From Rubrivirga marina (GTDB lineage: Bacteria > Bacteroidota > Rhodothermia > Rhodothermales > Rubricoccaceae), in assembly GCF_002283365.1 (NCBI RefSeq), contig NZ_MQWD01000001.1:807694-871693 (forward strand): a DNA stretch of 64,000 bases. The letters are read 5' to 3'. The translations under genes were made by a program, and so were the position numbers. The number at the start of each line of letters is the position of its first letter. The stretch's first letter is position 1. Positions 12,417-45,560 of the stretch are shown here, piece by piece. The notes under the pieces are model-generated. The model was not told where the DNA came from and searched no databases. It was given only the letters and a program-made list of their open reading frames with translations.

Positions 12417-12860
12417 GGTTCAAACGAGGTGCAACGGAGAGTAGGCTCGAAACGATTGGCGCCCCGTCGTTCCACGTGAAACGTCAGATGGGAATGCTGG
12501 GGCCAGCCAGTACCTAGACCACGAGCCGGACCCAACCGTGAGACGGGCATCACGAGCGACGCCCACCGACGACAGGCCGGCCGGGGTGGGGACCCCGGGG
12601 TGCCCCTCGTGCACAGAGGGCCGATGCCCGATGCGCCGGCACAGCGGACATCAGGTTAACGGATGCCGTGCGCGCGGCGTCGGTGAGAGATGGCCTCATC
12701 GGATGCGGCGCTGGGGGAACCCGTGAGCGGAACGGCCGCGCAACGACCCGTGCCGACAAGACAACAACCGCGGCTCGGCCGACACGAGGCATGACCGACG
12801 CATCAGACGAAGGGGGCAGCGCGTAGTGGCGTGAGCGCACGGCTCATACCTCTTGAATCC
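12417..12860. other. gene-free interval with a parS-like site
   Basis: This 444-bp gap between the divergent MMPL and DCC genes holds one parS-like palindrome (12468-12483) and a 7-bp hairpin (12581-12587/12592-12598). It must also hold the promoters of both flanking genes. A TACCTCTT stretch 8 nt before the DCC start is a weak promoter candidate. No convincing reading frame was seen. Confidence 0.5.
12468..12483. promoter_or_regulatory. parS: parS-like centromere site 1
   Basis: The 14-base core GTTCCACGTGAAAC matches the ParB/Spo0J-binding consensus TGTTnCACGTGAAACA in all 14 inner positions. Only the two outermost bases differ (C and G). It is intergenic. Two more such sites follow at about 3-kb intervals, which makes chance occurrence unlikely. 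Confidence 0.75.
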
Positions 12861-15294: not shown

Positions 15295-16445
15295 GAGGAG
15301 AGGGGAGCGGAGAGGGGGGAATTGAGACGGGTAACGCCGCCGCGTTCCACGTGAAACACGGCGTGCGCGTCGTCCTCGAACGGCACGACCCCCTCGAAGG
15401 GTTCTGCCCGCGCTGCCGTCACGAACGACTGCCCGAGTTCGCCCGAGGCGAGGAGACCAAGAACCACCCGGGTCCGGTCGGGGTCGAGAGGGCCGAACAC
15501 GTCGTCTAGGAGGAGGAGCGGCGGCTCGTCGGAGCGCTCCCGGAAATAGAGAGCCTGCGCCACACGAACGGCCAATGCGAACGTCCGATGCTGCCCCTGC
15601 GATGCGTACGGGCGGAGATCGAAGCCGTCGAGCTGGAAAAGAACCTCGTCCAGGTGGGGACCGACCAGTGTGCGCCCGAGGTCGCCACTCCGGCTCCGGG
15701 TCCGAACTAGCGACCGCCGCATGCCGTCCACGTCCGACTCGGAATCGGAGCCGCTCGACGGCTGGTATTCGAGCGTCGGCGTACCGCCCGGCGTGCCGAG
15801 CAGGTCATACGCCTCCAGCAAGAGATCCGCGAACCGGTCGAGGAAGATGCGACGACGCTCCACGACGCGCCCGCCGAGCATGGCGAGCTCTTCGTCCCAC
15901 GCTTCCATGGTCCCGGGGGTGAGCGCCCGACCCTTTCGGAGTTGCTGGAGCAACGCGTTCTTCTGCTTCAGCGCCCGCCGGTACTTCAGAAGATCGTCGA
16001 GGTAGACAGGGAATGCCTGGCTGAGCGTGGTGTCGAGTAGACGCCGTCGCTCGCTCGGACCGCCGGCGGTAAGGTCCCGATCGTTCGGTGACAAGATCAC
16101 CACAGGCACGCGGCCCACGAGGTCCGCCAGCCGATCGAGCGAACTGCCGTTCGAGAATCCTCGCTTCCCCTCCCTCGGCACGAACGCGAGGCGGAGACGG
16201 ACGTCGGGCCGGTCCTCCCCTTCAAACGTTCCTTCGACTGTGAAATGCGGCCCACCGCGCTGAAGAACCGTGGCGTCCGAGGCGCCCAAGAAGCTCTTCC
16301 CGAGACAGAGGTAGCCGATGGCCTCAATGACATTCGTCTTCCCCGCGCCGTTGGGGCCTACGAGGAGGTTGACGCGAGGGGCAGCTTCGACCTCGGTGCG
16401 CGTGTGGGCACGGAAGGACGAGAGAGAAAGGTGGCGGAGGCGCAC
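15291..16445 (-). CDS. recF: DNA replication and repair protein RecF
   Basis: RecF is an SMC-like ATPase that helps load RecA at gaps with RecO and RecR. Walker A is GPNGAGKTN, just after the family-typical start RLRHLSLSSFRAH. The signature region is around SPNDRDLTAGGPSERRRLLD, and the Walker B-like segment LLLLDDVFGPLD lies near the C-terminus. I use GTG 16445 (384 aa), which gives the classic RecF N-terminus. ATGs at 16511 and 16532 would add 22 or 29 residues, and the latter would overlap the start of the divergent CHAT gene. recF is commonly linked to dnaA/dnaN, but neither is present here. A parS-like site is embedded in its 3' end. Confidence 0.95.
   Translation of the reverse strand: MRLRHLSLSSFRAHTRTEVEAAPRVNLLVGPNGAGKTNVIEAIGYLCLGKSFLGASDATVLQRGGPHFTVEGTFEGEDRPDVRLRLAFVPREGKRGFSNGSSLDRLADLVGRVPVVILSPNDRDLTAGGPSERRRLLDTTLSQAFPVYLDDLLKYRRALKQKNALLQQLRKGRALTPGTMEAWDEELAMLGGRVVERRRIFLDRFADLLLEAYDLLGTPGGTPTLEYQPSSGSDSESDVDGMRRSLVRTRSRSGDLGRTLVGPHLDEVLFQLDGFDLRPYASQGQHRTFALAVRVAQALYFRERSDEPPLLLLDDVFGPLDPDRTRVVLGLLASGELGQSFVTAARAEPFEGVVPFEDDAHAVFHVERGGVTRLNSPLSAPLSS
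15343..15358. promoter_or_regulatory. parS: parS-like centromere site 2
   Basis: The sequence CGTTCCACGTGAAACA matches TGTTnCACGTGAAACA at 15 of 16 positions. It lies inside the last codons of recF. It would be a ParB loading site from which ParB spreads and recruits SMC. Confidence 0.8.
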
Positions 16446-42648: not shown

Positions 42649-43503
42649 TCAGTGGTACAGGAACAGCGGGACCGTCGCCTCCTCGAGCAGCCGCGTCGCG
42701 CTCGACCCGAAGATCATCTTGCGGAAGCCCGACTTGGCGTAGGCCCCGGACACGACGAGGTCGGCGCGGTCGCCCTGCGCCAGTTCGAGGATCCGGTCCG
42801 ACGCGTGGGTGCTCTCGATGCCAGTCGTCGTGACGGTTTCAAATCCGTGGGCCGTGAGGTAGGCCGCGGCGTCGGCGCGGAGCCGCTCGCTGGCCAACCG
42901 GTCGGCCTCGCTGCTTCCGCGGACGTGAACGATCTCGACGGCGAGGTCGGTCCCGAACGGCGCGAGGTGGGCAAACTTCTGGAGCGCCCGCGCGGACGGC
43001 GCGCTGCCGTCATAAGCGACGGCGACCCGGGACACCGCTGGGCGCGTCTGGCCGACGATCAGTGTCGCCGCGGCGGCCTCCTGGAGCACCTTGCCCAGCG
43101 TGTGCGTCCGCTTCTCGGGTTCGGCGTAGTAGAAGTGGCTCTCCCGGCCGGTCACCAGCAGGTCGTGTGTCCGCATCTCGTCGAGCAGGCTCTTGACGAG
43201 CTCGCCCTCCCCAACGCGGTCGCCCGTGTGACGGACGCCCTCTGCCTCGACGCGCTCGGTGAACTGGGCGATGAGTTCGTTCGCTCGCTGGCGGGTTTCC
43301 TCGGTGAGCCTCTCCCGGAGCTTCTCGGCGTAGTACATCGACCCGATGCCCCCGCCCGTGGCCTCCTGCCCGATGGAGTCCTTGTCGACGAACGCGAGCC
43401 CGGTGAGCTCTCCGTCGGTCCGTTTGGCGATGTCGATGGCCGTCTCCGTCGCGATGGGCGTGTCGGAGTCAGGGTCGAGAACGACGAGGATGCGCTGAGT
43501 CAT
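42649..43503 (-). CDS. tandem-domain universal stress protein
   Basis: This 284-aa cytoplasmic protein has two UspA-type domains. The N-terminal one starts RILVVLDPDSDTPIA. The C-terminal one starts VSRVAVAYDGSAPSARAL and ends with a nucleotide-loop pattern (VSGAYAKSGFRKMIFGSSA) like ATP-binding Usp proteins. ATG 43503 is chosen over 43548, which adds 15 unrelated residues. Its upstream region is the edge of the putative replication origin and includes the palindrome TGGTATACCA (43589-43598), a possible operator. Confidence 0.88.
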   Translation of the reverse strand: MTQRILVVLDPDSDTPIATETAIDIAKRTDGELTGLAFVDKDSIGQEATGGGIGSMYYAEKLRERLTEETRQRANELIAQFTERVEAEGVRHTGDRVGEGELVKSLLDEMRTHDLLVTGRESHFYYAEPEKRTHTLGKVLQEAAAATLIVGQTRPAVSRVAVAYDGSAPSARALQKFAHLAPFGTDLAVEIVHVRGSSEADRLASERLRADAAAYLTAHGFETVTTTGIESTHASDRILELAQGDRADLVVSGAYAKSGFRKMIFGSSATRLLEEATVPLFLYH

Positions 43504-43654
43504 GGCCAGGGGGAGAAGGGACTCGAAGGTACGCGAGGAGAGCCCCAAGGCGTTCCGACTGACAGCCTGTCACGGACTGGTCTACGAGTGGTATACCAGA
43601 GGCGATCAGTGGTCTATCCCGTCGGTCGCCCTCCTCCGGTTCCGTCCACACCCC

Positions 43655-43700
43655 TCTGTATTACTCTGTATGAAAGAATAGAATGCTGAAGAAGTAGTAG
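43655..43700 (+). other. candidate DNA unwinding element with DnaA-trios
   Basis: This AT-richer stretch ends in the trinucleotides AAG-AAG-TAG-TAG (43689-43700). A GC-rich GGC and two successive boxes (43704-43712, 43713-43721) follow immediately. The order AT-rich, trios, GC spacer, DnaA boxes is that of the basal unwinding system described for Bacillus subtilis. Confidence 0.7.
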
Positions 43701-43915
43701 GGCTGTGGATCCCGTGGACAACCCTGGAGGCCGGTGTGCTGTGGAGAGCCGTGGACAACACCCCCCACCCATCCACAGCGGCGTCCACGACGTCCGTGTC
43801 GAATCCAGTCGCTGGAGAGGCCGTCTGGGGCGATCGGGGGGGTGCCGTCCACATCTCCACACTCGTCCACAGCAAGGCGGCGCGTCTAGCCCGTTCGGTG
43901 GAAGGGCAGAGAGGG

Positions 43916-43924
43916 TGTGGACAA
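43916..43924 (-). promoter_or_regulatory. perfect DnaA box TTGTCCACA
   Basis: The minus strand reads TTGTCCACA, the high-GC form of the DnaA box. It sits in the middle of the box cluster, about 195 nt from the unwinding region. Confidence 0.75.
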
Positions 43925-44123
43925 GAGGTCGCACAGCCCGTGGGCGGTCTGGGGTTGACGAGAGGCCCAGGTCCCCCACCATCGGGAGCGTCCACAGGGC
44001 TTCCCAGTCCGGCTGGGGTTTTCCACACCTCCATCCACAGTGTGGATAGCCTTTTTCAGGGCGTTTGAGCCGGTCGGTGGATGGCCTCGGTCCGACAGCG
44101 ACACGGAATGAGCCCGAACAGAG

Positions 44124-44157
44124 GCGGGGCCGCGCCGACACATCGACACGGCCCCGC
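44124..44157. terminator. hairpin downstream of pgi, bordering oriC
   Basis: A perfect 9-bp inverted repeat GCGGGGCCG/CGGCCCCGC (44124-44132/44149-44157) with a 16-nt loop lies 25 nt past the pgi stop. It could stop pgi transcription before it enters the box cluster. Confidence 0.5.
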
Positions 44158-44181
44158 GGGAAATAAGACGTTCGGAGTCTG

Positions 44182-45462
44182 CTACGGCCGGCCGAGGAGG
44201 GAGAACATCTTCTGCTTATAGGTCTCGACGCCCGGCTGATTGAAGGGGTCGACGTCCAGCATCGTCCCGCTCACGGCGACGGCGTGCTCGTAGAAGTAGA
44301 GGAGGCGCCCGAGCGTCTCGGCGTCGAGGCGTGAGAGCGTGAGCGTCCAGTTGGGGACGCCGCCCTCAGCATGGGCCTCGGCCGTCCCCTCGTAGGCCTT
44401 CTCATTGACGAAGCCGTAGGGCTTGCCGGCGAGGTAGTTCAGCCCGTCCGGGTCGCTGTCCTCCTCCTTCACCGCCGGGCCGTCGTCGGCGTCGTCGATG
44501 CGGAGGAACGTCTCGACGAGCACGCGCTGGCCCTGCTGGACGTACTGCCCGACCGAGTGGAGGTCGGTGGTGTACTGGAGCGTGACCGGGAACAGACCCT
44601 TCCCCTCTTTCCCTTCGCTCTCGCCGAAGAGTTGTTGCCACCAGTCACCGATGCCGGTCAGCCGCGGGTCCATCGAGGCGAGGACCTCCGTCTTGTAGCC
44701 GGACTCGTGGAAGGCGTGGCGGTCGGCGGCGTACTGGAGCGCCGGGTGGGAGGCGTCCGCCTCGGTGAGCTCGCGGGCTTCGGCGACGGCGCCGTAGAAC
44801 AGCGTCCGCACGTCGACGCCCGAGGCGGCGATGGGCAGGAGGCCGACCGGCGTGAGGACCGAGAACCGTCCGCCGACGTCGTCCGGCACCACGTAGCGGC
44901 GGTAGCCGCGCTCGACGGCGAAGTCGTGGAGCGTGCCCCGCTGAGCGTCCGTCGTGGCGATGATCCGTCGGTCGGCGTCGTCGAACCGATCCTCCAGGAA
45001 CCGGCGCGCGAGGCGGAAGGCCAGCGCCGGCTCCAGCGTCGTCCCCGACTTGGAGATGATGTTGATGTAGACGCTCTTGCCGTCGAGGTACTCGAAGAGG
45101 CGTCGGTGGTAGTCCGGTCCGAGGTGGTGGCCGGCGAAGAGGACCTCCGGGCCGTCATCCGAGAACGGCGGGACGAGCGCCTGCATGACGGCCTCGGCAC
45201 CGAGGTACGACCCGCCGATCCCGATGCAGAGGAGCGCGTCGGCCCGCTCGCGAATCTCGTTGGCCGTGTCGGCGACGCTTTCGAGGAGGGCGTCGTCGGG
45301 GTCGAGGAGCATCTGACGCCAGCCGAGCATCTCAGGGCTGGCGGTCTCACCGTTGAGGACACGCTGGTGAGCGGCGAGGACGTCACCGTCGAGGGCGTCG
45401 CGGTCGACGTCGAGCTCGGCGAGCGCGTCGGCGGCGTACTGGCGGTCGAAGTGGAGGGGCAT
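44182..45462 (-). CDS. pgi: glucose-6-phosphate isomerase
   Basis: PGI interconverts glucose-6-phosphate and fructose-6-phosphate. The 426-aa protein belongs to the shorter Bacillus/Bacteroidota-type PGI. It shows GIGGSYLGAEA (phosphate loop), SKSGTTLEPALAF and GGRFSVLTPVGLLP, plus the C-terminal catalytic lysine region near QPGVETYKQKMF. ATG 45462 gives the family start; an upstream in-frame ATG adds 45 unrelated residues. It runs toward the putative origin. Confidence 0.95.
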   Translation of the reverse strand: MPLHFDRQYAADALAELDVDRDALDGDVLAAHQRVLNGETASPEMLGWRQMLLDPDDALLESVADTANEIRERADALLCIGIGGSYLGAEAVMQALVPPFSDDGPEVLFAGHHLGPDYHRRLFEYLDGKSVYINIISKSGTTLEPALAFRLARRFLEDRFDDADRRIIATTDAQRGTLHDFAVERGYRRYVVPDDVGGRFSVLTPVGLLPIAASGVDVRTLFYGAVAEARELTEADASHPALQYAADRHAFHESGYKTEVLASMDPRLTGIGDWWQQLFGESEGKEGKGLFPVTLQYTTDLHSVGQYVQQGQRVLVETFLRIDDADDGPAVKEEDSDPDGLNYLAGKPYGFVNEKAYEGTAEAHAEGGVPNWTLTLSRLDAETLGRLLYFYEHAVAVSGTMLDVDPFNQPGVETYKQKMFSLLGRP

Positions 45463-45560
45463 GGGTCGGGTGGAGAGGGGCGGTGCGAACGCCCGCGGCC
45501 CGACGTGGTGCCGCAGTTGGGTCCAGGACCGGAGCCCGATCAAGCGGCCGCCGTCCCGAT

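Follow-up and report, generated by a model that had tools for sequence, protein, structure and literature searches.

Does an intergenic interval crowded with DnaA boxes, 410 kb from the only dnaA gene of the genome (C1:442 kb), serve as the replication origin (oriC) of the Rubrivirga chromosome? A position next to dnaA is common for oriC without being a defining trait, and this interval does not have it. It lies in the window, the whole 64,000-nucleotide stretch that was analysed (C1:807694-871693, from a 4.98-Mb assembly with a main contig of 4.71 Mb). The interval is bounded by the start codon of a stress-protein gene (43501-43503, minus strand) and by the stop of pgi (44182, minus strand), whose sequence shares 92% identity with the pgi of a Rubrivirga MAG.

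42649-43503, minus strand: usp, universal stress protein gene with two Usp domains (PF00582), origin neighbour
43504-44181: usp-pgi intergenic region, 678 bp, predicted oriC
43642-44049, both strands: DnaA-box cluster of 408 bp, 14 9-mers differing from TTRTCCACA at no more than 2 positions
43916-43924, minus strand: perfect DnaA box TTGTCCACA, from the 9-mer scan
44182-45465, minus strand: pgi, phosphoglucose isomerase (PF00342), origin neighbour

The first-pass annotation had proposed a putative origin here on the basis of at least 14 DnaA-box-like 9-mers within about 400 bp, on both strands, one of them perfect and several matching at 8 of 9 positions. The rescan bears this out, with 14 sites in 408 bp (box starts from 43642 to 44041), the perfect box on the minus strand and five boxes with one mismatch (43713, 43750, 43863, 44019 and 44041). 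The interval contains 12 TCCACA cores, compared with a mean of 0.50 and a maximum of 5 in 5000 first-order Markov shuffles of the same sequence, indicating that boxes are far denser than chance, as for a bacterial chromosomal oriC. No other 500-bp stretch of the 64 kb comes close to these 12 cores, the next highest count being 2, and a 1.2-Mb sample of the remaining genome reached at most 6 cores per 500 bp. The interval does not look coding, because in an alignment of four Rubrivirga genomes invariant columns number 82 of 90 in the boxes as against 102 of 312 outside them.

The usp side of the cluster carries the features of a basal unwinding system, in a window of 70% GC overall.

43642-43650, plus strand: inverted DnaA box CCGTCCACA beyond the AT-rich element as seen from the tandem boxes, from the 9-mer scan
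43657-43696: AT-rich DNA unwinding element, 30% GC, the lowest-GC 40-mer of the 64-kb window
43689-43700, minus strand: DnaA-trios CTA-CTA-CTT-CTT, equal to 3'-GAT-GAT-GAA-GAA-5' on the plus strand, conserved across families
43701-43703, minus strand: GC spacer of 3 bp between the tandem boxes and the trios
43704-43721, minus strand: tandem DnaA-box pair TTGTCCACG, GGATCCACA, part of the unwinding element

The order on the minus strand is thus TTGTCCACG-GGATCCACA-GCC-CTA-CTA-CTT-CTT, followed by AT-rich DNA, the lowest-GC 40-mer starting at 43657. Basal unwinding systems are defined by a DnaA box, a spacer of at most 16 bp and at least three trios with a central A (PMC8287927); here, four trios could be read directly from the sequence, and the element was aligned in 12 genomes. 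The arrangement matches the B. subtilis type in its tandem boxes, short GC-rich spacer and AT-rich element, and in having 3'-GAT-5' as first trio, the most frequent one adjoining the box (PMC8287927). It differs from that type in lying between usp and pgi, not beside dnaA, and in having a further inverted box beyond the AT-rich element. Of 30 loci, 22 have such a box beyond the AT-rich stretch, at a distance of 40-100 bp from the last box (null from a Markov model, 0.033). Like E. coli oriC, the site is apart from dnaA, with a box cluster beside an AT-rich element; the neighbour genes are different, and the Rubrivirga trios are clear whereas E. coli oriC scores weakly for trios (PMC8287927). 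The first-pass annotation was silent on the unwinding element, as it was on the parS sites and the order-wide conservation described below.

To search for this element, a model named R1 was built from sequence only, using 12 genomes with our own sequence among them.

43661-43725 (C1:851354-851418), minus strand: R1 match, 39.5 bits, E=1.9e-9, the sequence itself being among the 12 training sequences

Our sequence belongs to the training set, so what is informative is that no second site matched and that R1 also matched genomes not used in training. R1 matched a single place in the 4.98-Mb genome, the usp-pgi interval, with no match at dnaA. It matched 41 of the 60 genomes searched, at a single site in all but three, and the element was not found in some relatives among these 60. 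Matches outside the training set include G002, G005, G007, G008, G017, G027, G029, G032 and G045. In the three exceptions, all of family f14 (G041, G047 and G059), the extra site lies on the opposite strand, overlapping or adjacent, within about 50 bp.

The alternative that survives best, although we consider it very improbable, is that the true origin is the region upstream of dnaA (C1:441.2-441.5 kb) and that the usp-pgi cluster titrates or reactivates DnaA, as datA or DARS do. The genes dnaA and dnaN are adjacent (C1:441.6-444.6 kb), with two perfect TTGTCCACA boxes and one TTGTCCACC upstream, and two relatives (G001 and G003) likewise carry two perfect boxes upstream of dnaA. However, the R1 search of the genome found no trio or unwinding element at dnaA. 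The first-pass annotation had regarded the distance from dnaA as unusual, a distance now put at 410 kb, and had named a better box cluster beside dnaA as a finding that would count against the interval; the region there has just three boxes and lacks an unwinding element. Autoregulation of dnaA is the most likely function of these boxes. The usp-pgi site shares with E. coli datA and DARS the presence of DnaA-binding sites away from dnaA, but trios beside an AT-rich element are not expected of titration sites. To our knowledge, datA and DARS have neither trios, nor a skew switch, nor parS nearby, in contrast to the Rubrivirga site. As a separate observation, several relatives encode two DnaA-domain proteins (G012, G020, G021, G026, G031, G032 and others), and in G032 the second one lies 25 kb from the predicted origin.

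Strand composition also separates the two locations. The whole-genome GC-skew check proposed in the first-pass annotation did not refute the proposal: raw GC skew in our genome showed no clear switch and, being too weak and confounded by gene strand, was set aside, while fourfold-site skew gave an interval of 790-860 kb that includes the cluster. For the latter, genes were called in sampled stretches by self-trained codon scoring, and the skew was fitted with gene strand (as covariate) and replichore as factors; a first, crude gene caller was dropped for its unstable strand fractions. The best origin was at 820 kb and the terminus at 3.25 Mb. In log-likelihood units, which are approximate as they treat genes as independent, the cluster (851.6 kb) lies at -0.72 and dnaA (441.5 kb) at -4.94 relative to the best fit, so that dnaA fits 4.2 units worse. 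This skew is weak (replichore coefficient 0.017); in a block bootstrap the cluster was preferred over dnaA in 89.5% of cases, and 9.5% had their best fit within 100 kb of dnaA, which is in favor of an origin at dnaA. The switch is strong in two complete genomes of relatives where dnaA is far. In G015, with dnaA 229 kb from pgi, the cluster scored -1.3 and dnaA -20.9 log units; in G032, with dnaA 170 kb away, the best fit was at 590 kb, the cluster at 0.0 and dnaA at -18.4 log units. Our genome and G015 thus have the cluster within the support interval, G032 has it at the best fit itself, and the two relatives strongly reject dnaA (by about 18-21 units). In G032 the raw skew changes sign as well: all stretches sampled over 20-582 kb gave negative values and those sampled over 590 kb-1.62 Mb positive ones. 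The switch is thereby confined to 582-590 kb, and the element is located at 586.3 kb. A single-switch fit to a contig of G001 was best at 1830 kb, near the element at 1818.7 kb; we do not take it as proof because its interval also reaches 1450-1550 kb.

Sites resembling parS are found on the usp side of the window.

12468-12483: parS-like palindrome, 2 mismatches, 0.02 expected in the window
15343-15358: parS-like palindrome, 1 mismatch, one of only two such in the genome
18493-18508: parS-like palindrome, 1 mismatch, the other of these two

These three sites are 25-31 kb from the box cluster, and none with at most 2 mismatches was found in 1.21 Mb sampled elsewhere in the genome. Where dnaA is far, parS stays with the cluster, which argues against an origin at dnaA: in G015 and G032, parS is 34-56 kb from the element versus 224-270 kb from dnaA, and the range becomes 34-60 kb when G041 is included. 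In G010, G019, G004 and G029, dnaA itself is near, and parS is 40-110 kb from the element and nearer to dnaA, a point against the usp-pgi interval, as are the relatives in which R1 found no element. The single 16S gene starts 26 kb away, at C1:877969 on the plus strand, co-directional with the fork leaving the cluster. The sole ParB-like gene found (L055, G000:C1:3762202) is at 3.76 Mb, separated from the parS sites by about 1.8 Mb of the circle. With a generic dif pattern there was one weak match, at C1:3659980, which was set aside.

A still less probable reading is that the boxes form a DnaA-responsive regulatory region of usp and not an origin. The cluster is directly upstream of usp, usp stays adjacent in many families, and the stretch from the AT-rich element to usp contains repeats and a 13-bp palindrome. 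This palindrome, TGACAGCCTGTCA at 43560-43572, upstream of usp, is invariant in four Rubrivirga genomes and is possibly an operator. The tandem repeat TATACCA-N4-TAGACCA (43578-43595, minus strand) follows the form TATAYCR-N3/4-TRTAYCR, which occurs once in the window and is present at the same place in 8 of 30 loci (families f1, f10 and f12; null 0.0018 per locus). We raise, as a doubtful suggestion, that an old pgi-usp origin address, separate from dnaA, includes these order-specific repeats, about one helical turn apart, as an extra part, and that a protein bound to them could make initiation, or the expression of usp, respond to stress or metabolic state. Against the reading as a regulatory region of usp and not an origin, such a role leaves skew and parS unexplained, and the element is kept without usp.

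Gene names in relatives come from reading translations, not from database calls, and a pgi-based search for related loci returned two loci. In most of the order's families the element follows pgi on the 3' side, and where pgi is not adjacent usp adjoins it (for example L208, L213, L222, L223, L227, L229 and L231); pgi, usp or both adjoin the same element across much of the order. In family f13 the order is pgi-element-comEC, without usp (L233, L234 and L237). In families f17 and f18, which belong to another group within the class, the element is beside dtd and purM (L235, L236 and L239-L242), which suggests a different conserved origin address in that group; a DinB-like gene is also beside the element at these loci. 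In family f4, the element is near a pyrG-like gene, adjoining neither pgi nor usp (L232, G011:C2:33796). Since the element is conserved beside differing genes across groups, it predates these neighbours, with pgi and usp as its address in this order. The cluster may regulate usp in addition to its probable role as an origin.

That it is left over from the origin of an integrated plasmid or phage we practically discount. Plasmid origins also carry box clusters, but a search for a plasmid match found none, and a single chromosomal address conserved in many families of the order, that is vertical conservation, already contradicts it.

Altogether, box density, unwinding element with its trios, uniqueness of the R1 match, conserved synteny, fourfold-site skew and parS sites all point to the usp-pgi interval as the oriC of the Rubrivirga genome, a reading to which we give a probability of about 95%. 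By analogy with other bacteria, DnaA, produced from a gene 410 kb distant, would bind the box cluster, and an ATP-DnaA filament would grow from the tandem pair (43704-43721) onto the single-stranded trios (43689-43700), melting the adjoining AT-rich element (about 43657-43696), with probable help from the inverted box on its far side. The helicase would be loaded at the melted element, the forks would leave both ways, one past usp and the other past pgi, and ParB bound to the parS sites 25-31 kb off would segregate the new origins.

We found no description of an origin in Rhodothermus, Salinibacter, Rubrivirga or Rhodothermota in the open-access literature. The element is of a known kind, at a conserved pgi-oriC-usp address distant from dnaA that we did not find described. 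It provides Rubrivirga with an origin backed by sequence evidence and its order with a search model; in this order, an origin placed by reference to dnaA would be off by tens to hundreds of kilobases. This bears on coverage-based growth-rate estimates, strand-bias studies, genome numbering and the building of replicating plasmids, and offers, for testing, a trio-based unwinding system that is GC-rich and far from dnaA.
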